Under the pieces are notes generated by a model that had not been told where the DNA came from, ran no database searches, and saw nothing but the letters and a program-made list of their open reading frames with translations. A program made the translations under genes and the position numbers. A stretch of 64,000 nt of DNA from Streptantibioticus cattleyicolor NRRL 8057 = DSM 46488 (GTDB lineage Bacteria > Actinomycetota > Actinomycetes > Streptomycetales > Streptomycetaceae), in assembly GCF_000240165.1 (NCBI RefSeq), contig NC_017586.1, forward strand, positions 2,356,001-2,420,000, read 5' to 3'. Position 1 is the first letter of the stretch. Each line of letters starts with the position of its first letter. Of this stretch, positions 29,458 through 52,127 are shown one piece after another.

Positions 29458-29804
29458 CCGTCCCGGTCGTGCTTGCGGGAGTTGCAGGCGCGGCATAGCA
29501 CCTGGATGTTGTCGGCGGTGTTGGTGCCGCCCTGCTGTTTCGGGGTCTTGTGGTCGGCTGTGAGATCCGTGGCCGGGTGGGCGGGTACTGCCCACCCGGG
29601 GCACCAGTTGCCGTACGCGGTGCGGTGATTGCGGACGGCGGCGGCGGCCAGCTTGCGCCATGCGGTGTCGTACCCGCGTTGGGCGGCGGAACCCCGGCGT
29701 TGGTCGTGCTGGGCTTGCCAGGCAGCTTGGTGGTGGTCGCAGCGTGAAGCGTTGCGGGTGAGCGTGCCGCAGTCGAGGCAGGGGCGTGGTCGGCGCACGG
29801 TCAC
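29427..29804 (-). CDS. HNH endonuclease (terminase-linked)
   Basis: The 125-residue protein has an N-terminal C-x2-C pair (CLDCGTLTRN...CDHH), a central WCPGW, then LTADHKTPKQQGGTNTADN and LCRACNSRKHD, a full HNH core with Zn-binding Cys pairs. HNH proteins beside terminase genes are known to be needed for specific cleavage by terminase in cos phages. GTGA overlap with the upstream helix-turn-helix gene. Confidence 0.85.
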   Translation of the reverse strand: MTVRRPRPCLDCGTLTRNASRCDHHQAAWQAQHDQRRGSAAQRGYDTAWRKLAAAAVRNHRTAYGNWCPGWAVPAHPATDLTADHKTPKQQGGTNTADNIQVLCRACNSRKHDRDGYDRPQVTGG

Positions 29805-30022
29805 CGCTTCGGGGTCTTCGCCTGCCGGGTGGCCATGAGCGCGTCGAGGTCGGGGCGCGCGTACAGGTGGCGGGTGCGGTGTCCGTCGCCGGTGAGCGCC
29901 GGGCGCAGCAGTCCCCGGAGTTTCCACTGGCGGATGGTGACGGGCCGGACTCCGGCGTACTCGGCGGCTTGATCGGGATCGAGAAGATCGCTGCTGTACA
30001 GGTGCGTGAGCGGTGTGGCCAT
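29801..30022 (-). CDS. MerR/excisionase-type helix-turn-helix protein
   Basis: The 73-residue protein reads LLDPDQAAEYAGVRPVTIRQWKLRGLL followed by a wing (TGDGHRTRHLYARPDLDAL), the usual winged-helix of the HTH_17/MerR-like group. It is coupled to the HNH gene by a GTGA overlap and follows a terminator of the upstream unit. It may regulate this small unit. Confidence 0.7.
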   Translation of the reverse strand: MATPLTHLYSSDLLDPDQAAEYAGVRPVTIRQWKLRGLLRPALTGDGHRTRHLYARPDLDALMATRQAKTPKR

Positions 30023-30136: not shown

Positions 30137-30529
30137 TCACTCGGAGCGCTGGTAGGCGCGCCGCCCCTTGAGCGCGGCGGCGACGGTCTGGCCGTACCAG
30201 CGGTGCGCTCGGCCGGTGGTGTCGTCGGCGGGCGGCCAGTTGCCCCGTGATCGTTCGCTGTTGATCGTGCTGGGGGACGGTCCACCGGCGGCGTGGATCT
30301 CTTGGGCGGTGTACAGCCGAAGTGGATCAAGGGCGGGAGCCGGCCGCACGATGTGATCTTGAATGAAGCGGTCGACGTCGGCCGGGGCGTACTCGTTCCA
30401 CCGGCCGCGCTTGCCGACGGGCGTGGGCCAGTCAGGGTGGCGTGACCATCCCTTCTGGACGGTGGTGAGGCTGCGTCCGGTGCGGGCGGCGATCTCCGGG
30501 AACGTCTCACCGCCGGGGGCGTCTACCAT
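30137..30529 (-). CDS. double helix-turn-helix DNA-binding protein 1
   Basis: The 130-residue protein has two MerR/AlpA-like helix-turn-helix units. The first is FPEIAARTGRSLTTVQKGW with PVGKRGRWNEY as wing (residues about 9-58). The second is RLYTAQEIHAAGGPSPSTIN with RSRGNWPPADD as wing (about 70-125). It is clearly related to the plus-strand protein at 32942-33331, sharing PVGKRGRW, LDP-RLYTAQEI and RSRG-WP. The leader carries GGGG-rich repeats like those of the neighbouring small genes. It probably regulates this locus. Confidence 0.75.
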   Translation of the reverse strand: MVDAPGGETFPEIAARTGRSLTTVQKGWSRHPDWPTPVGKRGRWNEYAPADVDRFIQDHIVRPAPALDPLRLYTAQEIHAAGGPSPSTINSERSRGNWPPADDTTGRAHRWYGQTVAAALKGRRAYQRSE

Positions 30530-30651
30530 GGTGGTCCCAGTCCTTTCTGGGGTTGCTGGGGTTGACCGGCGGGGTTTTCCGGCGGGCACCTGCGTGGTGT
30601 CCGTGAGCTTACGGGCTCGGCCCCGCCGGTCGTCTGTCGGCCCACGCGGGT

Positions 30652-30677
30652 CCGCCCCCGGCTGGTGCCGGGGGCGG
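30652..30677 (-). terminator. terminator of small-gene unit A
   Basis: CCGCCCCCGG pairs with CCGGGGGCGG around a 6-base loop, 10 bp after the unit A stop. Confidence 0.6.
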
Positions 30678-30686
30678 TGTGGAGCG

Positions 30687-31070
30687 CTACTCCTGGTCGT
30701 CCGTGGCCTCGTTTTCGCGGAGCCAGACCCCGAGCGCGTGCAGCGGAGCCTCGGCGTGGACCAAGGCGGCAACGATCTGGTGGAACCGGATCGGCAGGGG
30801 ATCGTTGAGTTCCTGGTTGTACAGCTCGCTGGCGGTGAGCCAGTGGATGCATGCGGCGAACAGGTTCGCCTTCTGCTCTTCCGGCATCGGTTGGTCTTCG
30901 ATGATCTTGACGAGTCGGCGGACTGCCGGTTCGCCGGTGGAGCGGGTGACCGTGCCCCGGGGGAGTTCGACGGGGACCGGCAGGCTCCGGCACGCCAGAG
31001 TCAGTCGCCAGTAGACGACGCCGAGGTGTCGGCCGAGTTCGTCCATGTCGTCAATGTCGGGCTCGTCCAT
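30687..31070 (-). CDS. small acidic paralogue A
   Basis: The 127-residue protein belongs to a local family of four. Shared marks are CRSLPVPVELP (about residues 27-37), VRRLVKIIEDQPMPEEQK (about 50-67) and HWLTASELYN (about 75-84), with acidic ends. Length and helix content suggest a small all-helical domain. It has its own promoter, a structured leader with AGAAAGGAA ribosome site, and its own terminator. No known family recognised. Confidence 0.7.
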   Translation of the reverse strand: MDEPDIDDMDELGRHLGVVYWRLTLACRSLPVPVELPRGTVTRSTGEPAVRRLVKIIEDQPMPEEQKANLFAACIHWLTASELYNQELNDPLPIRFHQIVAALVHAEAPLHALGVWLRENEATDDQE

Positions 31071-31133
31071 TCCCTTGTTCCTTTCTCGGTTGGGGTTTCA
31101 GGTGGGGTTTCCGGCCCCTTCCTGACGTCTTCG

Positions 31134-31162
31134 ACCTTACCTCATTGGGTAGTGATTCTCAA
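31134..31162 (-). promoter_or_regulatory. sigma-70-like promoter of unit A
   Basis: Read on the minus strand: TTGAGA (31162-31157), a 17-bp spacer, then TAAGGT (31139-31134). The same box layout precedes units B and C, which makes chance unlikely. Confidence 0.65.
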
Positions 31163-31182
31163 GAGATCATGGAAAGAAAAAT

Positions 31183-31236
31183 GCCCGGCCGTTACGCCGG
31201 GCGAAGGGGCCCGCCCCCGGCTGGCTGCCGGGGGCG
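31183..31236 (-). terminator. double terminator of unit B
   Basis: Two hairpins follow unit B: CCGCCCCCGG/CCGGGGGCGG and then GCCCGGC/GCCGGGC. On the minus strand the second is followed by ATTTTTC, a good U-tract. Confidence 0.75.
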
Positions 31237-31246
31237 GCAGGGTGGG

Positions 31247-31633
31247 TTACTCCTGGCCGTCTTCGCTTTCGCGCTTGTTGGCCACGGCCCATTCAGCGAA
31301 TTCGTTCACGTAGCGCTCCGCCCCGATGAGGCACGCCAGCACTTCGAGATTGCGGCCCTTGTGGGGTTCCTCCATGTGGAGGTGGAGGACATCGTGTGCG
31401 GCGAGCCAGAATGAGGCTGCCAGCACCAGGGATGATTCCGCCGCTTCCGGTATGGGCTGGTCATCGATGATGTCGAGCAGGCGCCGCACTGCATCCTCGG
31501 CGTCCGAGGCGAGGATGACCCCGTTGGGGAGTTCCACGGGGATGGGAAGCGCCCTGCAGGCGATCACCAGCTTGACGTACGCATTTGCGATCTCCGCCAC
31601 CAGGTGGGCGAAGTTTTCGGACTCGTCTTCCAT
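31247..31633 (-). CDS. small acidic paralogue B
   Basis: The 128-residue protein shares CRALPIPVELP, AVRRLLDIIDDQPIPE and FWLAAHDVL with its neighbours. The N- and C-termini are acidic (MEDESEN..., ESEDGQE). It is the middle of three tandem minus-strand copies. It is isolated by its own promoter and double terminator, so it can be expressed alone. Confidence 0.7.
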   Translation of the reverse strand: MEDESENFAHLVAEIANAYVKLVIACRALPIPVELPNGVILASDAEDAVRRLLDIIDDQPIPEAAESSLVLAASFWLAAHDVLHLHMEEPHKGRNLEVLACLIGAERYVNEFAEWAVANKRESEDGQE

Positions 31634-31694
31634 GTTTGTCCTTTCTGGGTTGGGGTTTCAGGTTGGGGTTTCCGGCCCCGCCCTGATGTCTTCG

Positions 31695-31723
31695 ACTCTA
31701 CCCCATGAAGTAGTGATTCTCAA
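31695..31723 (-). promoter_or_regulatory. sigma-70-like promoter of unit B
   Basis: Minus strand: TTGAGA (31723-31718), 17-bp spacer, TAGAGT (31700-31695). The sequence between boxes (ATCACTAC...) is nearly that of unit A. Confidence 0.7.
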
Positions 31724-31747
31724 GAGCCGAGTTGGCTTCTCTTATCA

Positions 31748-31785
31748 AAAAAAGGGGGGGCCGCCCCCGGAGAGCCGGGGGCGGC
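31748..31785 (-). terminator. terminator of unit C
   Basis: GCCGCCCCCGG pairs with CCGGGGGCGGC over a 4-base loop; in the minus direction a C-run and then seven T follow (A-run at 31747-31753 on the plus strand). Confidence 0.75.
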
Positions 31786-31793
31786 CACTTTGG

Positions 31794-32159
31794 CTACTCG
31801 TTGGACCGGTTTCCCATGGCCCATTCGGAGAACTCTGTGATTGCGCCCTCCCCTGCCATGAGGTTCGCCGCGATCTGGTACTGACGCGTTCCCTGCCAGT
31901 TCGCGGCGTTGAGCTGGTGAAGATCCTGGGCGCTGAGCCAGAACGCGCACGCCATGCTCAGGTGCGCCTTCTGCTCGTCCGGCATGGGTTGCTCGTCCAG
32001 GATGTCGAGCAGTCGTCGGATTGCCGCTTCTCCCGCACTGGTCTCGCGGGGGAGTTCGACGGGAATGGGGAGTATCCGGCACGCCAAGACGATGACAATG
32101 TAGAGGAGTGCGATCTGGCTCCCCATCGTCTCGTGCTCGTCGTTGTTCTCGTCTGCCAT
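31794..32159 (-). CDS. small acidic paralogue C
   Basis: The 121-residue protein shares CRILPIPVELP, AIRRLLDILDEQPMPDEQK and FWLSAQDLHQ with A and B; the ends are acidic and Asn-rich. It is the first minus-strand copy, divergent from paralogue D. Ribosome site AGAAAGGAA lies before ATG. Confidence 0.7.
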   Translation of the reverse strand: MADENNDEHETMGSQIALLYIVIVLACRILPIPVELPRETSAGEAAIRRLLDILDEQPMPDEQKAHLSMACAFWLSAQDLHQLNAANWQGTRQYQIAANLMAGEGAITEFSEWAMGNRSNE

Positions 32160-32216
32160 TGCGTTCCTTTCTGTGTGGGTGTCGGTCGGGGTTTCCGGCC
32201 CCTTGCGACGTTTACG

Positions 32217-32246
32217 ACTCTACACCATTCGAGTAGTGGTTCTCAA
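32217..32246 (-). promoter_or_regulatory. sigma-70-like promoter of unit C
   Basis: Minus strand: TTGAGA (32246-32241), 18-bp spacer, TAGAGT (32222-32217). It faces the promoter of unit D only about 36 bp away, so shared control is possible. Confidence 0.65.
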
Positions 32247-32281
32247 TAGGTGAGGTGAGGAAAGTTTCTGGACTTCTGGTG

Positions 32282-32311
32282 TTGCAAAACAGGAATCGAA
32301 TGCTGTAGCTT
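32282..32311 (+). promoter_or_regulatory. probable promoter of unit D
   Basis: TTGCAA, an 18-bp spacer and TAGCTT lie about 70 bp before the ATG of paralogue D. The boxes differ somewhat from those of units A-C. Confidence 0.45.
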
Positions 32312-32379
32312 AGGTGTTGCCGGGCCGGGGAGTGACAGCCCCACCGGCACCAGTTGAAAACTCCACAGAGAGGAACGTC

Positions 32380-32787
32380 ATGGCAGACCATGACAGTCAT
32401 CGAGAGCGGTGGAACGCCATCGCTGATGTGGCTCTCGGGGCACTCGAATACATTCGAGTGCTGCTCGGTGACCTGCCCGTCCCCGTGCTGATCCCCGAGA
32501 TCAACCCGAAGAGGGAAGCGGAAGATCTGCCGCACCTGGTGATGAGCATCGACCGAGTCCGCAGCGTCATCCAAGACGAGCCGATCTCCGAGGCGCGGCA
32601 AAGCGCCTTCGACAGAATCATTCTCGACTGGCTCACCGCGTACGAAATGCTGGCGCTCACCAGGGTCGCGGGTCCCGCTCCCTGGCGCCTGGACTGCGCG
32701 GAATACGCGCTCTACCGAATCGCCGCCGCCGGTGGGCTGATCGAAACCGGCGAAATCGATGAAGAGGAAGAGGAAGACGACTCGTAA
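32380..32787 (+). CDS. small acidic paralogue D
   Basis: The 135-residue protein is a more distant copy. It has LGDLPVPVLIPE, VRSVIQDEPISEAR and LDWLTAYEML in the same order as the three minus-strand copies, and a strongly acidic end (EIDEEEEEDDS). The ribosome site AGAGAGGAA precedes ATG. The leader has a GCCGGG/CCGGC hairpin and the word CACCAGTTGAAA, which also precedes the next gene. Confidence 0.65.
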   Translation: MADHDSHRERWNAIADVALGALEYIRVLLGDLPVPVLIPEINPKREAEDLPHLVMSIDRVRSVIQDEPISEARQSAFDRIILDWLTAYEMLALTRVAGPAPWRLDCAEYALYRIAAAGGLIETGEIDEEEEEDDS

Positions 32788-32797
32788 CGCCACCGTC

Positions 32798-32821
32798 GCC
32801 CCCTGGCACCAGCCAGGGGGC
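32798..32821 (+). terminator. terminator of unit D
   Basis: GCCCCCTGG pairs with CCAGGGGGC over a 6-base loop 11 bp after the stop of D. Confidence 0.6.
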
Positions 32822-32862
32822 ACCCTCTTGGAGGGCGTCACGACAGTCAGCGCGCACACTGA

Positions 32863-32906
32863 AGGGCCGGTGCATCCCCGTACGGGGGTGACAGAGCACC
32901 GGCCCT
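32863..32906 (+). promoter_or_regulatory. stem-loop in the leader of DNA-binding protein 2
   Basis: AGGGCCGGTGC pairs with GCACCGGCCCT, enclosing an inner CCCCGTACGGGG palindrome. It ends 35 bp before the ATG and is followed by TCACCAGTTGAAA, as in the leader of paralogue D. It could be a control hairpin or a protein-binding site. Confidence 0.5.
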
Positions 32907-32941
32907 CACCAGTTGAAACTCCCGAAAGGAGCGTCGCGGCC

Positions 32942-33331
32942 ATGGTAGCGCGGCTCATCGTGCCGGAGATTGCCGAGCGGTACGGCCGGTCCGCCGATAC
33001 CGTGTCGAAGCAGTGGTCGACGCGCGAGGAGTGGCCGCGCCCGGTCGGCAAGCGCGGCCGGTGGCTGGAGTACGACGCCCTCGAGGTGGCCGCGTTCGTC
33101 CGTGACCACGTGGAACGCGAGCTGGTCAGCCTCGATCCGCAACGGCTCTACACCGCGCAGGAGATCGAGGCGGCCACCGGGATCAAGGCGGCCACGATCC
33201 GCGCGGACCGGTCACGCGGCCGGTGGCCGGACCCCGATGACACCGAGCACGGCGCGCAGCGTTGGTCCGGGCGGGCCGTCAGCGCAGTGCTGGCCACCCG
33301 GCGCGGCTACCGGCGGCGCGGCGGCACCTGA
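32942..33331 (+). CDS. double helix-turn-helix DNA-binding protein 2
   Basis: The 129-residue protein mirrors DNA-binding protein 1. It has VPEIAERYGRSADTVSKQW with PVGKRGRWLEY, then LDPQRLYTAQEIEAATGIKAATI with RSRGRWPDPDD and a basic end. By eye about half the residues agree. It is read away from the centre on the plus strand, so the locus is roughly symmetric. A good ribosome site (GAAAGGAG) lies 13 bp upstream. Confidence 0.75.
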   Translation: MVARLIVPEIAERYGRSADTVSKQWSTREEWPRPVGKRGRWLEYDALEVAAFVRDHVERELVSLDPQRLYTAQEIEAATGIKAATIRADRSRGRWPDPDDTEHGAQRWSGRAVSAVLATRRGYRRRGGT

Positions 33332-33360
33332 GCGCCTGGCCGCCCCGGCCAACTTGACGA

Positions 33361-33388
33361 AAGCCCCGGCCGATGCTGGTCGGGGCTT
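33361..33388. terminator. bidirectional terminator
   Basis: AAGCCCCG (33361-33368) pairs with CGGGGCTT (33381-33388) between two convergent genes; A and T runs are short on both sides. Confidence 0.6.
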
Positions 33389-33413: not shown

Positions 33414-33617
33414 TCAGGAGCGTTCGAAGCGGACCAGCTCGCCAGCCTCGACGATGGCGACAAGCCGCGCCCCGGGCAGCTGCTCCCGAGGGATGCCGGT
33501 GTCAGCGGTGATGCGCTCGACCGGCACCCGCTCGGGGTCGGCGTCAGCGCGGTGAGGGGTGGTCAGCTCCGCCTGGTCGCCGACCAGTAGCAGGACTCGG
33601 ACAGGCATGCGTTCCAT
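33414..33617 (-). CDS. small hypothetical protein
   Basis: The 67-residue peptide (MERMPVRVLLLVGDQAELTT..., LVAIVEAGELVRFERS) has an alpha/beta pattern. GGAG lies five bases before the ATG at 33617. It is placed after a 230-bp gap that follows the membrane operon. No family recognised. Confidence 0.5.
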   Translation of the reverse strand: MERMPVRVLLLVGDQAELTTPHRADADPERVPVERITADTGIPREQLPGARLVAIVEAGELVRFERS

Positions 33618-33843: not shown

Positions 33844-34584
33844 TCAGGCGGTCCGGTCGTGCTGCGGGTGGATCACCCGGACATGGGCGCGGCGAGGATT
33901 GCCGGGGTCGTCGGTGATGACGATGCGCGCGCCTCCCGGTCCCCTGCGGACGGTAGCCAGAGCCGTAGTCGAGGCTGTAGCCACCGATGTAGCTGGGGGC
34001 TGACCTGCAACTACAGCTTCGTCCGGGCCAGCGGTCCCGGCCGGGGAGGGCAGCGGGACGTCGTCGCGGTGGACGCCGACGGTGGGCCCCCGGCCGGGTG
34101 CCCGGACGGTGGGCCGTACGGGCACCCCTGCCGCGGCGCACAGGGCCCGGACGCGGGGGATGGTCCACCGGCCCTGGGGGTACTCCTCGGCCAGGCGCTC
34201 GACGAGGCTCACCAGGTGCACTCCGCGGTGCGGTCCGAGGGCGGCACGCAGGAGGGCCAGGAACTGCTCCGGGGAGATCCCGCCCGCCTCGTCGCCGTCC
34301 GCCGGTCCCGGGGCGGCCTCGGCCGGGGCCGCCGGGTGCCGGGGCCGGGCGGCGCGCGCGGCGGCGATGCACCACGCCGGGACGGCCAGCCACAGCAGGG
34401 CGGGCCGGGATCGGATCAGCCGTACGGCGGCGTACCCGGCGGCGAGCAGGACGAGCAGCCGGAGCGCCACGTGGGCCCGGGTCTCCCCCGCGCGCACCCA
34501 GGCGGCCAGGGCGCGGGCGCGGTTGGTGGCCAGGCGTCCGCTGCCGTCGTGGATCGCCGCGGCCCAGCGGTGCAGGCGCTCCAT
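33844..34584 (-). CDS. membrane protein of the spread-like operon
   Basis: The 246-residue protein has a basic N-terminus, two close hydrophobic helices (about residues 42-58 and 63-77) and a cytoplasmic region with a wing-like ISPEQFLALLRAALG... to VPVRPTVRAPGRGPTVGVH. It overlaps the upstream gene (TGATG). The layout of small membrane proteins in series is like spd genes of Streptomyces plasmids, which help plasmid spread; this is an analogy. Confidence 0.55.
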   Translation of the reverse strand: MERLHRWAAAIHDGSGRLATNRARALAAWVRAGETRAHVALRLLVLLAAGYAAVRLIRSRPALLWLAVPAWCIAAARAARPRHPAAPAEAAPGPADGDEAGGISPEQFLALLRAALGPHRGVHLVSLVERLAEEYPQGRWTIPRVRALCAAAGVPVRPTVRAPGRGPTVGVHRDDVPLPSPAGTAGPDEAVVAGQPPATSVATASTTALATVRRGPGGARIVITDDPGNPRRAHVRVIHPQHDRTA

Positions 34585-35093
34585 CACAGGACGGCTCCCC
34601 CGTTGAACCAGGCCAGCACGCTGTCGCCACCGGTGTTGACCACGGGCACGATGGTGGAGCCGATGAGCCCGGCGACGCCGGCCGACAAGGTCAGGGTGGC
34701 GCCGGCCCACCAGCCGCCGGCCAGTCGGCGCTTGAGGACCTTGGTGGCCGCCCTCCACGCCACGATGACACCGACCAAGAGCAGGAACGTGAGCAGCGCG
34801 CCGCCCGGGGTGAGGCCGCCGGCGGCCCCTCGGGCGACGGTGCCGGCCCCGGTGCCGGTCGCGCCGGGGACGATGTGGCCGCCGGCCGCGTTGTTCAGGC
34901 CGGCGGTCCAGCCGGCGGCGGCGCCGAGGAGGCCGCCGCAGATGGTGGACAGGGCGCCGAGTGCGAAGCCGCTGGCGAACGGCAGCAGGTGCTTCGGGTC
35001 GCGGCCGGGGCTCTTCCACCAGGACCAGGCGTTGACGCCGGTGATGGCCAGGCCGACGGCGAGGCCGCCGACGGTGAGGGCCGTGTGGCTCAT
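34584..35093 (-). CDS. multi-helix membrane protein
   Basis: The 169-residue protein has about four hydrophobic segments (residues about 5-22, 40-62, 92-112 and 128-150) and Gly/Ala-rich loops; SPGRDPKHLLPFASGFALG is the best conserved-looking stretch. ATGA overlap with the gene upstream, TGATG overlap downstream. It fits a transfer- or superinfection-type membrane operon. Confidence 0.6.
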   Translation of the reverse strand: MSHTALTVGGLAVGLAITGVNAWSWWKSPGRDPKHLLPFASGFALGALSTICGGLLGAAAGWTAGLNNAAGGHIVPGATGTGAGTVARGAAGGLTPGGALLTFLLLVGVIVAWRAATKVLKRRLAGGWWAGATLTLSAGVAGLIGSTIVPVVNTGGDSVLAWFNGGAVL

Positions 35094-35578
35094 CGGGTGA
35101 CTCCGGTGAACAGGGTGACGATGTCGAACAGGTGGGCCATGTCGATGGTGCCGAGAACGGCGGCGCAGGACAGGGCGCGGGTGTACCAGCGGGGCCGCCA
35201 CCGGTCGGCGGCGATGGCGACGGCCAGCGCGAGCCCGGCGAGCGTCCAGGCGGCGCCGGTGGATTGCTCGGCGCGGCACTCGCGGAGCAGGTGTCCCCAC
35301 CCGGAGGCGAGGGACCAGCCGCCGAACACCGGTAGCAGCGCCAGCACGGTGCCGATGAGGTTGCGGCGGGGCTGGAGCCACTCCCACGACCATCTCCACC
35401 GTGGCGGAGCTGGTGGGGCGGGCGGGAGCGGCAGGTAGATCTCGCGGATCACGATGGTGCCGGGCGCCGGCGGTGGTGCGGTGGGTGTGCCTGGCGGGGG
35501 CGTGGCCGGTGGCGCGGCCGGGGTGGGCAGCGGCTGGCCGGCGGGGATGACCGCGGTCGGCCGGATGGGCTTACGCAC
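35090..35578 (-). CDS. Pro-rich membrane protein
   Basis: The 162-residue protein opens with a Pro/Thr-rich linker (residues 1-60), has a Trp-rich turn (RWRWSWEWLQPRR) and then three hydrophobic helices. It starts with GTG and overlaps both neighbours. No family recognised. Confidence 0.55.
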   Translation of the reverse strand: MRKPIRPTAVIPAGQPLPTPAAPPATPPPGTPTAPPPAPGTIVIREIYLPLPPAPPAPPRWRWSWEWLQPRRNLIGTVLALLPVFGGWSLASGWGHLLRECRAEQSTGAAWTLAGLALAVAIAADRWRPRWYTRALSCAAVLGTIDMAHLFDIVTLFTGVTR

Positions 35579-35780
35579 GGAGTGCTCCGAGGATGACGGT
35601 GGCGGCGACGGCCAGGTAGGCGGCGGCGCACGCGGCGAGGGCGGCGCCGGCCGCGCCGCGGTGGCGGGTCGCCGCGGCGATGGCGTACGTGGTGGCGCCG
35701 ACGGCGAAGAGCAGCAGCGCAGCGCAGGTTGCGGTGGTGCGCAGCGGTGGTGCGCTGCACGCGGCGATCAGGCGGCTCAC
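35571..35780 (-). CDS. small two-helix membrane protein
   Basis: The 69-residue product has two Ala-rich transmembrane helices (about residues 12-35 and 42-65). GTG start overlaps the upstream stop by four bases. Likely part of the same membrane complex as its neighbours. Confidence 0.55.
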   Translation of the reverse strand: MSRLIAACSAPPLRTTATCAALLLFAVGATTYAIAAATRHRGAAGAALAACAAAYLAVAATVILGALRA

Positions 35781-36790
35781 GCGTATCCGCCTCCGCCCTG
35801 GCCGACGCCGTCGCGCGGCGGGGGTGATGCGGACTGCGGCTCCTTCTTGGCGCGGCCAGCCCGCCACAGGACCGTACGGACGTAGTTGGTCTTGACCGTC
35901 AGGCCGTGCCGGTCGCGAACCAGGTCCACGATGGCCCGGGGCTTCGCCTCATCGCCGAGAGCGGATGCGGCCTCCAGGATCGCGGTGCTCTTCTCGATCG
36001 CCGGGAGCTGGGGCGTACCGGCCCCGACCTGCGGCGCATCATCAGGTGCGCCGGGCGCATCATCGCGTTCTAGGTACACCTCGGGCGGTTCGGTGTTCAG
36101 GACGAGAGCGACCTGGATGCTGTCCACGATCACGCCGTACGTAACCAGCTGGGCGGCGAGTTCCTTCGCGTTCAGCTCCGGCCGGGCCTGGTGCGCCACA
36201 CGGATCGCCTCGACCGGGTCGAGGCCGGCGAAGTGCCTCCGCAGGACCTCCGTGGCCGTGTGGCGCGGCGCATCGCCGGGCGCATCTGGTCGGTGCGCTG
36301 GTGCGCTGCCCTCGATATGGGCCAGCGCCCGGTCCTTGACGGCGGAGCTGGCCCGGCCGGGGGCGAGCAGCCAGGCCCAGCCGCCGAACACCGGCAGCCG
36401 GAACGGCTGCTCGCTGCGAGCCTCGGCGCGCGGTCCGGCCCAGGACAGCTCCGAGACGAGCAGCAGCGCGACGGTCGGCGCGGCGAACAGCGCGGTCGCC
36501 GGGAGGCCGCCGCGGATCAGGTCGGCGTGGAACCGGTTGAGGTAGACCGACACGGTGGCCATGCACAGGGCCGCGAGCCGGGCGCCGATGGCGGAGCGGC
36601 CGGCCGCGGCAGCAACGGACGCCAGGTGGAGGCAGGCGTAGGCGGCGCCGTCGTACACCGCGGGTGCGGCGACGGCGATGTACCAGGGCGCCCCGTAGTG
36701 GCGGGCGACCGCGGCCAGCGACCAGCCGGTGGTGGCGATGGCGGCCACCGAGATCAGGCCCACCGCGAAGGGCCAGGCGTGTCCCTTCAT
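35777..36790 (-). CDS. DUF2637-like membrane protein
   Basis: The 337-residue protein starts MKGHAWPFAVGLISVAAIATTGWSLAA and has four transmembrane helices in its first 135 residues, as in DUF2637 proteins known from Streptomyces plasmids and integrative elements. The C-terminal half (about 195-337) is soluble. It looks like helix-turn-helix units (ELNAKELAAQLVTYGVIVDS; RAIVDLVRDRHGLTVKTNYVRTVLW). Such proteins occur beside transfer and spread genes. Its exact role is unknown. Confidence 0.65.
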   Translation of the reverse strand: MKGHAWPFAVGLISVAAIATTGWSLAAVARHYGAPWYIAVAAPAVYDGAAYACLHLASVAAAAGRSAIGARLAALCMATVSVYLNRFHADLIRGGLPATALFAAPTVALLLVSELSWAGPRAEARSEQPFRLPVFGGWAWLLAPGRASSAVKDRALAHIEGSAPAHRPDAPGDAPRHTATEVLRRHFAGLDPVEAIRVAHQARPELNAKELAAQLVTYGVIVDSIQVALVLNTEPPEVYLERDDAPGAPDDAPQVGAGTPQLPAIEKSTAILEAASALGDEAKPRAIVDLVRDRHGLTVKTNYVRTVLWRAGRAKKEPQSASPPPRDGVGQGGGGYA

Positions 36791-49920: not shown

Positions 49921-49964
49921 AATACACACTCCCCCGGTTGCATGGGATGCGGCATGATGTGCTC

Positions 49965-50471
49965 ATGGACCAGGACTGGGACGCGCTGGGCCGACGCCTC
50001 GCTGCGGCACGGAGAGGGCTGCGGCCCAAGGTCAGCCAGAAGGAGCTGGCCGACCGCCTCGGTGTCAGCCGCAGCACGGTGCAAGCCATCGAGCGCGGCG
50101 CGTACCAGCGGGTCACGTTCGCCGTGCGCGACTACGCGCGCGCGGTGGGCTGGACCGACGAGTCCATCGAACGCGTCCTCGCCGGCGGCGAGCCGGACGC
50201 CGGCCCGGCCCTCAACGCCGCGCGAATGGGGTCCTCACCGGCGGCGGGCCAAGCGCTTCCGATCCCGCTTCGCGTGGAGGAGGAGTTGCGCGAGGGGCCG
50301 GTTTTGGACACGGCCGTGATGGAGCTCCCAGGCAGCCGGTCCCGTGTCGTCGTCGTGGTGATGGGGCCGCCGGACGCGGACCCGGAGGAGATCCGGCGCG
50401 ACCTCCAGGTGTGGCGGCGTACGGAGGCCCAGTTCAAGGAGCTGGACGACTCCGACGACGTGAACCCTTAG
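49965..50471 (+). CDS. CI-like XRE repressor
   Basis: The 168-residue protein has an XRE helix-turn-helix at about residues 8-62 (VSQKELADRLGVSRSTVQAIERGAYQRVTF) and a C-terminal part with RSRVVVVVMGPPDADPEEIRRDLQVW. No Ser/Lys peptidase is seen. Placed opposite the Cro-like gene, it is the likely lysogeny repressor. Confidence 0.65.
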   Translation: MDQDWDALGRRLAAARRGLRPKVSQKELADRLGVSRSTVQAIERGAYQRVTFAVRDYARAVGWTDESIERVLAGGEPDAGPALNAARMGSSPAAGQALPIPLRVEEELREGPVLDTAVMELPGSRSRVVVVVMGPPDADPEEIRRDLQVWRRTEAQFKELDDSDDVNP

Positions 50472-50840: not shown

Positions 50841-52127
50841 ATGGCGTACGCAGAAAAGAGAGTCAGTCAAGCCAAGGGCAAAAAAGGAAAAGTCACCTGG
50901 CGAGCCCGATACAAACGGCCTGATGGCACATGGGGTTCCGAACCAGGCTTCCCCACGAAGACGACCGCCGAAAACTGGGGTGAGGAACAGGAAGCAGCGA
51001 TACGCGCCGGCCGCTGGATCGACCCGGAGCTGTCGCGTAAACACTTCGGTGTCTGGGCGAAAGAGTTCATGAAGGCTCGGCAAAAGCGGAGCCGGACAAA
51101 CGACAAGCGCTGGGACCTGCTGAACGAGTACATCCTGCCGAAGTGGCAGCACGCGCCGCTCATCTCCATCACCTGGTTCGACGTCGACTCCTGGGCGCAG
51201 ACACTCCCCTGCGAGGATGTCACCCGAGGGCATGCCGTCAGCCTCATGTCCACCATCATGACCGCGGCCGTAGATGCACAGCATCTGCTGGTGAATCCGC
51301 TGGCCGGCCGCCGCCGTTCCAAGGAGGTGCTCACGCTCGCCTCGGCGGAGGCGAAGCGGGAGGAGACCGCGGAGAAGTGGCACCGGCCCGAGGACGTCAT
51401 TCTCGTCGCGGAGCGACTGGGGCCGGCCCGGGGGCTGATGGTCCTGACGGCGGGGTTCACCGGGATCAACTGGGGTGAAGGCCAAGGGCTGCACCGGTCC
51501 AAGACCCTGCTCATCCGGCGCGAACCGTACGACGGCGGCGTGTGGACGTGTCCGGTCCTGCGCATCGACCAGGAGGTCGCCGAGTCCACCCTGCGTGACG
51601 AAGACGGCAAGAAGCTCGGCGATGTCCTGGCACTGGAACCGGTGAAGACCAAGTACCGGATCCGGGATATCGACCTGCCCCCGTTCCTCGCGCTGTTGTG
51701 GCGCTACCACTACGACGACTGGCCGTTCGACTGGATGCTGTCCACGGCGAACGGGAAGTGGTGGCGCCGCAGTAACTGGGGGAAGGTCCTGCGGCCGGCC
51801 GCCGACGGCCGGCCCGAGCTCGACCGGTGTCAGGGCCGGAGTGCCCGCCCGAAGTGGGAGCCGATCGCGCCCGGCATGACGATGCGGAGCCTGCGGCACA
51901 CGGCCGACACGTACCAGGAGCAGATCGGTGTGAAGGCACCGCTGGCGTACGAGCAAGCTGGTCACAAGCAGCCCGGTATCAAGGGCGTGTACCAGCACCC
52001 GACGCCGGAGATGCGCCAGGAACGCCTGGACGGCCTACAGGAGATTTTCGAGCGCGCCATGCGAAACTTGGGACTGAGGACGCTGTGGGGGCGGGTTGAC
52101 CTGCGCAAAGGCTCTCCCTGGAGATGA
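50841..52127 (+). CDS. int: tyrosine integrase with altered Arg I
   Basis: The 428-residue protein has an N-terminal arm-binding part (KVTWRARYKRPDGTWGSEPGF), a core-binding helical part (about 65-160) and a catalytic part. In the catalytic part, Arg352 (LRHT), His375 (GHK) and Tyr384 (GVYQH) are in place. The usual first Arg (T-G-M/L-R-W-G-E) is replaced, here TGINWGE with Asn210, and the His of H-x-L-R is Arg349. Its end lies 94 bp before the attachment repeat, as expected. Activity therefore needs proof. Confidence 0.85.
   Translation: MAYAEKRVSQAKGKKGKVTWRARYKRPDGTWGSEPGFPTKTTAENWGEEQEAAIRAGRWIDPELSRKHFGVWAKEFMKARQKRSRTNDKRWDLLNEYILPKWQHAPLISITWFDVDSWAQTLPCEDVTRGHAVSLMSTIMTAAVDAQHLLVNPLAGRRRSKEVLTLASAEAKREETAEKWHRPEDVILVAERLGPARGLMVLTAGFTGINWGEGQGLHRSKTLLIRREPYDGGVWTCPVLRIDQEVAESTLRDEDGKKLGDVLALEPVKTKYRIRDIDLPPFLALLWRYHYDDWPFDWMLSTANGKWWRRSNWGKVLRPAADGRPELDRCQGRSARPKWEPIAPGMTMRSLRHTADTYQEQIGVKAPLAYEQAGHKQPGIKGVYQHPTPEMRQERLDGLQEIFERAMRNLGLRTLWGRVDLRKGSPWR

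Follow-up and report, generated by a model that had tools for sequence, protein, structure and literature searches.

What a temperate phage gains from a row of four related small genes, each preceded by its own promoter-like site and structured leader, is the question raised by positions 30,137 to 33,388 of a 64,000-nt stretch of Streptantibioticus cattleyicolor NRRL 8057 = DSM 46488 (contig NC_017586.1, positions 2,356,001 to 2,420,000; this whole stretch is called the window below). The array lies inside a prophage. Our analysis has shown that it is part of a conserved module in Streptomyces-family prophages, present twice here, and that a short word in the leader loops of the array genes recurs before a neighbouring gene encoding a tandem winged-helix protein. 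The two kinds of genes may be co-regulated through this word as a common RNA operator, perhaps read by the winged-helix protein, in a control circuit that is apparently undescribed; we take this possibility seriously and hold it tentatively. The array family (A-D) is denoted here as F and the tandem winged-helix gene as H, while "the C gene" is the gene matching phrog_34071 and is distinct from F gene C. The genes are as follows (lengths in amino acids, aa; pI, isoelectric point).

30687..31070, minus strand: F gene A, 127 aa, A-type, phrog_33636
31247..31633, minus strand: F gene B, 128 aa, A-type
31794..32159, minus strand: F gene C, 121 aa, A-type
32380..32787, plus strand: F gene D, 135 aa, D-type, inverted
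30137..30529, minus strand: H1, 130 aa, two tandem MerR/Xis-type winged helices, pI 9.9, module 1
32942..33331, plus strand: H2, 129 aa, paralogue of H1, pI 10.1, module 2
33414..33617, minus strand: the C gene (phrog_34071), 67 aa, the sole copy found in the window

The four open reading frames were found where the initial annotation had placed them (A, B and C on the minus strand, D on the plus strand), and its proposal that they are related, with D a distant copy read the other way, agrees with the pairwise comparison. In BLASTP, run against a database of these four sequences only, pairs among A, B and C share 36-42% identity (E-values from 1e-26 to 4e-31) and D matches them at 2e-6 to 2e-4; by sequence, paralogy is clear for the first three and remote for D. 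All four belong to one PHROG, phrog_33636 (A 7e-22, B 2e-15, C 2e-18, D 1e-3, the match of D spanning 72 residues), and D reaches 6e-30 after iteration over relatives, with a family model that itself includes D. The LPxPVxLP, R...P and W-L-x-A segments described earlier are visible in the alignment of the four proteins. Elsewhere in the genome (8.1 Mb) phrog_33636 has one weak match (E 0.22). The F genes split into the A-type and the D-type.

The paralogy of H1 and H2, which are 54% identical, and their membership in the same modules as the array were absent from the initial annotation. The window contains two modules, module 1 with A, B, C and H1 on the minus strand and module 2 with D and H2, inverted, on the plus strand. 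The C gene matches phrog_34071 at 7e-23, a PHROG entry without function.

First scans for relatives, with a model of the three close paralogues (A1), yielded none in genome or viral contigs. The phrog_33636 profile itself has matches in 8 genomes out of the 297 of this family, a number that includes the own genome, and iteration gave 18 F members across those eight stretches; scans with sub-alignments of the A-type and the D-type gave overlapping sets of 8, 9 and 18 loci from viral and genome contigs. Eight of the nine genome-contig loci are Streptomyces records, and the ninth, L042 from a short Hydrogenedentota contig, does not hold up as a family locus (E 0.45). Together with the window, loci L019-L060 constitute 43 sources, duplicates included, in which the models find 87 F genes, 41 H genes and 41 C genes. 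All three are present in 39 of the 43 sources, mostly in the order C, F (one to four copies), H, with a mean gap of about 160 nt behind F genes. Among the exceptions there are L021 and L022 (no H found), L042 (empty) and L057 (begins past the place of the C gene), and an F gene is located behind H in L019, L023, L025 and their twins. The same phages recur among the sources (L027/L044, L028/L043, L026/L046, L030/L047, L019/L031, L025/L032/L040); with exact duplicates counted once there are 68 distinct F leaders and 32 distinct H leaders, and leaders shorter than 110 nt would be skipped.

One relative with closely related head genes, the viral contig L027 (amino-acid identity to the window 89% for the small terminase, 80% for the large terminase and 93% for the portal), has F and H at the corresponding place, namely one A-type F, one D-type F and one H, all on one strand, and the module order recurs. 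The description of A, B and C as being like tandem morons, that is, genes absent from close relatives at the site and provided with their own promoter and terminator, does not fit this distribution and falls short of the array, whose genes are part of a conserved C-F-H module.

The leaders of the four F genes fold into the following predicted hairpins.

31098..31125, minus strand: leader hairpin of A, loop word CCGGAAA at 31108-31114
31658..31686, minus strand: leader hairpin of B, loop word CCGGAAA at 31669-31675
32181..32209, minus strand: leader hairpin of F gene C, loop word CCGGAAA at 32192-32198
32318..32349, plus strand: leader hairpin of D, loop word GTGACAG at 32332-32338

All 68 distinct F leaders are covered by a set of seven hairpin patterns, each leader fitting one of them. 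The inner stem is usually GGGG/CCCC, the loop usually has 7 nt, and the outer stem is variable in sequence (the first F of L036 has a single inner pair only). In the window the hairpin begins 6-8 nt past the -10 box, close to the expected transcript start, and in many leaders a small hairpin over the ribosome site comes next. In 28 leaders of the G-class 90.3% of cells are paired, a level reached by none of 500 shuffles, and slid versions attain at most 47.8%. Four pairs are changed on both sides, a count that 7 of 500 shuffles reach; the variety of pair types is unremarkable, being reached in 132 of 500 shuffles; one outer pair is A-U in 11 sequences, G-C in 10 and unpaired in 7. For C-class leaders RNAalifold produced only the inner stem or an untrusted fold, since MAFFT misaligns stems of variable length, and a flank-swap test was used for this reason. 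With 59 unique flank pairs from the 68 leaders, the own 3' flank pairs better than swapped ones (4.37 vs 3.31 bp), which was matched in 0 of 1000 swaps.

A covariance model of the G-class, run on 35 sources, gave 32 strong matches, every one at an F leader; of the remaining three, two were weak and lay at H leaders, and the third had E 0.84. In 294 genomes a model built from G-class leaders only, with strict filters (R1), had strong matches in G000 and G007 alone, at F genes, and one weak match each in G154 and G194 (E 0.006), with no F member in the 3-kb locus; GGGGCCGSRAACCCC occurs just three times in the 8.1-Mb genome, at A, B and C. An element used host-wide is rejected on these counts. 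Two leader patterns run across viral contigs returned one already known contig and none, and Rfam 15 gave no match at the gathering score in the window or in L028, L020, L059 and L025, the best E-mode matches being far below cut-offs. In L022 (9848-10237) an F gene is inverted relative to the C gene, its loop is down to 6 nt (CCGCAA), and H was not found; this state looks like decay of the leader element.

The H genes have structured leaders that contain the same words.

30564..30631, minus strand: structured leader of H1, word CCGGAAA at 30576-30582
32863..32906, plus strand: structured leader of H2, word GTGACAG at 32888-32894

In 31 of 32 distinct modules the last six loop bases of an F gene are repeated in front of H of the same module, 36-64 nt from its start codon, and in 29 of 32 every F word that was read agrees with the H word. 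The main variants are GTGAGAG, GTGACAG, GTCAGAG, CCGCGAA, CTGCGAA, CCACGAA and CCGGAAA. When modules are shuffled, the mean number of matches is 8.2 and the maximum 19; when they are shuffled within the two lineages, the mean is 16.5 and the maximum 26, and in neither case does any of 20,000 shuffles reach 31. On the H tree the word has changed at least nine times over the 32 related rows. The sequences around the word behave differently: in the 31 modules that could be compared (L019 has no word before H), neither its 5' side (515 of 2000 swaps as high) nor its 3' side (1705 of 2000) matches within modules. Since the flanks do not match, whole leaders have not simply been copied, and on this control homogenisation of whole leaders is rejected. 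The predicted folds leave the word unpaired in both leaders, in the apical loop before F and in a junction before H.

Both kinds of words are found in the window, CCGGAAA in module 1 (A, B, C and H1) and GTGACAG in module 2 (D and H2). On the H tree, whose word labels, as on the C tree, were entered by hand, H1 groups with ten CCGCGAA proteins (support 92/84) and H2 with GTGAGAG/GTGACAG proteins (92/85), both below the starred level; the C tree does not include the window. Because words and tree placements differ, the two modules of the window, one of them inverted, seem to differ in ancestry.

The way in which the word could act depends on the transcripts that carry it. The sites relevant here are consensus-like promoters and hairpins at the gene junctions.

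31134..31162, minus strand: promoter-like site of A (TTGAGA ... TAAGGT), consensus only
31695..31723, minus strand: promoter-like site of B (TTGAGA ... TAGAGT), consensus only
32217..32246, minus strand: promoter-like site of F gene C (TTGAGA ... TAGAGT), consensus only
32282..32311, plus strand: promoter-like site of D (TTGCAA ... TAGCTT), consensus only
31747..31785, minus strand: terminator-like hairpin with T-run after F gene C
31173..31237, minus strand: two hairpins after B, ATTTTTCTTT behind the second
30652..30677, minus strand: hairpin without T-run after A (A-H1 junction)
32798..32821, plus strand: hairpin without T-run after D (D-H2 junction)

The promoter pattern (a TTG -35 box, 16-19 nt, a T/C-A-N3-T -10 box, score at least 7 of 12) is found as a sigma-70-like promoter before 66 of the 68 distinct F genes, and before none of the 32 distinct H genes and none of 33 C genes; a promoter of another type may precede H. 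Within 12 nt past the hairpin behind an F gene, the mean T count is 3.97 before another F (n=31) and 1.94 before H (n=32; Mann-Whitney p 4e-7). Given these counts and the distribution of promoters, each upstream F gene appears to be a transcription unit by itself, and the last F appears to share a transcript with H. In the window, the hairpins after A and D have no T-rich stretch, and A and D are therefore more likely to form cotranscribed pairs with the HTH (helix-turn-helix) genes H1 and H2 that follow them, with B and F gene C as probable separate units. Of the features that had been assigned to A, B and C, promoter-like sites and structured leaders are present, and D has both as well; of the terminators assigned to the same three genes, those of B (behind the second hairpin) and F gene C have T-rich stretches and stand, while that of A lacks a T-run. 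The A, B and C promoters also share CACTAC and a GTAG/GTAA-like half between the -35 and -10 boxes (31134-31162, 31695-31723, 32217-32246), possibly an operator; other phages have different repeats there.

These features can be arranged into a circuit. Each F transcript would open with a hairpin showing a phage-specific loop word, and the same word is found at a constant position in the structured leader of H. The transcription of H probably depends on the promoter of the last F, since F-F junctions have T-rich terminator-like hairpins and junctions between the last F and H mostly do not. The word would then be an RNA operator recognised in trans by one phage factor that sets the expression of F and H together, probably at translation. 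If H, a basic tandem winged-helix protein, were this reader, the circuit would include autoregulation; F, an acidic four-helix bundle, could be the effector or a partner of H, which is a guess. Of the roles suggested in the initial annotation (regulation, immunity, interplay with host defence), regulation fits best, via the leader RNAs.

Among the module proteins, H is the likeliest reader, though this is a lead drawn from modest evidence and we regard it as doubtful. In the window a single C gene stands against two words and two H genes. In 13 hand-picked modules (four with YGCGAA, nine with GTGAGAG), H proteins are 64-74% identical within YGCGAA, 60-79% within GTGAGAG and 54-64% across words, so that H identity separates the two words nearly without overlap. 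The identities of F (58-75 and 64-81% within words, 52-81% across) and of the C gene (59-75 and 36-84% within, 36-82% across) do not separate them; on a quick F tree a clade of 13 (Shimodaira-Hasegawa-like approximate likelihood ratio 99) holds both word classes, and the C tree mixes them too. The fuller version, in which H reads the RNA word both in the F loops and in its own leader, at a junction or pseudoknot, word and protein have diversified together, and two modules can stand side by side without cross-talk, would have to be called rather unlikely.

Several observations weigh against an RNA operator of this kind or against H as its reader. The hairpin and word patterns were drawn up after the leaders had been inspected, and outer stems of the C-class, often of 2-3 pairs only, are weak evidence of a fold. 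The last 30 nt before the start codon show a slight match to the own module (113 of 2000 swaps as high). The word is missing before H in L019 (F word GTAACAG), the single miss among 32 modules, and in two modules an F word disagrees, GCGAGAG at the first F of L026 and CCGCAAA at the second F of L023, which lies behind H. In L031, the twin of L019, an H-type stretch with GTAACAG stands at about 8463 between the D-type F and the next F, with another gene instead of H behind it, as if H had moved. The word class changes 3 times on the H tree, barely fewer than the 4 changes counted on each of the other two, the C tree and the F tree, and H adjoins its own leader, so linkage alone may tie it to the word. 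L021 keeps the hairpin and the word though H was not found in its 19-kb stretch. Finally, H looks like a DNA-binding protein.

The alternative that survives best is processive antitermination, where the hairpin, nut/boxB-like or put-like, would let polymerase pass the array terminators towards H and the terminase side, with the word as the specificity element. The N/boxB systems of lambda, 21 and P22 have such a word-like element, and as there, the loop sequence here is phage-specific and repeated within a phage; there are several sites per phage, each between a promoter and a terminator-like hairpin, and in the window the array is on the terminase side of the genome. But H has the word without an F-type promoter, inside what appears to be the transcript of the last F, and inspection of the module proteins, the only ones searched, showed no arginine-rich protein of the N type (F and C gene products are acidic). 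The hairpin over the ribosome site that follows the element in many leaders also fits translation better than antitermination, which we consider unlikely.

The word could also mark duplex DNA to which H binds, with the sites serving as operators of the array or as packaging sites of the cosB/R type next to the terminase genes; specificity of the small terminases differs between phages lambda and 21. The model of H (predicted local distance difference test, pLDDT, 82; predicted template modelling score, pTM, 0.53) contains two winged-helix units, nearest to domains of small terminases, Xis, BldC and MerR (Foldseek best E 0.22, Z up to 6.6). Its first domain is most like small-terminase DNA-binding domains (7lwr and 7lw0, Z 6.6, 52-54 residues aligned), and although H has no Pfam match above cut-off, H2 has a sub-threshold match to Terminase_5 (0.006). 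Z values of 6-7 are common, however, and the prophage has a separate small terminase (Terminase_4). Each half of the H model resembles the fold of those known proteins; H differs from them in having two domains in tandem and no effector domain. The word in F leaders lies in an apical loop with stems on both sides, of which a duplex site needs none. In favour of DNA sites, the word and its exact complement form an inverted repeat before H in 11 of 15 G-class modules; overall we hold such sites to be distinctly unlikely.

That complement is itself the basis of a further alternative, in which the F loop word would pair, in trans or over a distance, with the complement before H and so disrupt the pseudoknot that is predicted for the H leader. 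These 11 modules of the G-class have an exact reverse complement of their own word 84-115 nt ahead of H, in three variants and never that of a foreign word, and the word and complement would form a pseudoknot with an 11-bp stem of the H leader; its pairs were counted on alignment A12, which consists of the 11 complement-bearing modules, selected as such, with two rows misaligned. The complement is absent before H2 of the window and in L026, L027 and L036, and in seven C-class loci inspected there is none near the module, bar one at +3 kb in L020, yet the word is shared there anyway. Pairing of loop and complement is thus rejected as a general rule, being confined to the G-class, and RNA-RNA control as the main mechanism is improbable. 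Equally little probability remains for a mere expression cassette, with independent accessory genes that have a promoter, a stabilising 5' hairpin near the transcript start and a terminator each, in copy numbers from one to four, and a word without a reader: it leaves both the sharing of the word with H and the conserved C-F-H order unexplained.

As regards known systems, nothing on the module was found in the open-licence literature of PubMed Central (PMC). The nearest published case is the start-associated sequences (SAS) and extended SAS (ESAS) of cluster K mycobacteriophages, repeated elements at the translation starts of a subset of genes, without an assigned function, and their inverted-repeat consensus varies between subclusters (PMC3203893). 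As described there, SAS is a constant 13-bp sequence at many unrelated genes, unlike the present hairpin with a variable loop word, which precedes one gene family and H; the 13-bp GGGATAGGAGCCC at the start codon is not seen in the window leader sequences when compared by eye (PMC3203893). The PHROGs v4 entries phrog_33636 and phrog_34071, matched by F and the C gene, have no function, and the search output gives no sign that they describe the module, leader or word.

In the lambdoid phages N/boxB differs from the present element in three respects: no N-like protein was found among the module proteins, one site precedes H inside an apparent transcript, and translation elements follow. Should the element be an antiterminator nevertheless, temperate phages of Streptomyces would have in it a candidate system of processive antitermination; should H read RNA, this would be an unusual use of a DNA-binding fold. 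Either way, an anonymous row of prophage genes becomes a testable circuit, with a compact RNA element and natural word variants each tied to a sequenced H, and PHROGs 33636 and 34071 gain a common context.

No enzyme or structural family had been recognised for A-D, and this agrees with our searches, since Pfam, NCBIfam and PADLOC have no match for them and phrog_33636 is the sole assignment; PADLOC has nothing for the C gene either. The PADLOC model mad1 is weakly matched by H2 (3e-4) and H1 (0.011) over part of the second HTH. With E up to 1, tblastn found no match for A and D in 50,697 phage records and none for F gene C in 72,556 plasmid records. The AlphaFold model of F, based on 61 sequences, is a bundle of four helices with a mean pLDDT of 91.5, and comparison with known structures was uninformative: Foldseek gave nothing at E 0.001 or better (best 0.12 in PDB, 0.18 in BFVD). 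The PDB matches to TRPV1 and to designed bundles (VIA Z up to 9.7 for the latter) say little for a helical bundle and were dismissed as meaningless, and a single match of the F profile to PDB sequences (E 0.02 over 23 residues) was taken as chance. F is acidic (median pI 4.4, n=67), as are C gene products (4.7, n=33), and H is basic (9.8, n=32, range 6.1-11.2).

On the low-coordinate side of the array, the minus strand encodes an HNH endonuclease, the small terminase, the large terminase, portal, prohead protease, capsid and tail protein; on the other side, small genes, most of them without assigned function, are accompanied by an XRE-type HTH gene (49947-50471). By position and length the gene at 51069-52127 is an integrase candidate, but Pfam gave it no match at E 0.001. 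The search for tRNA genes in the window was negative. A further small MerR-type HTH gene (MerR_1, 4e-6) lies at 29801-30022, between H1 and the HNH endonuclease gene. A conserved block of genes without function (phrog_5650, phrog_16379, phrog_15316 and phrog_29416; 33844-36790) precedes the C gene and has the same position in several relatives. In two relatives a gene with a TROVE domain (Ro60-like) is located a few kb from the module, at 11749-13320 of L024 (Pfam 3.5e-14) and, by similarity, at 17484-19148 of L023.

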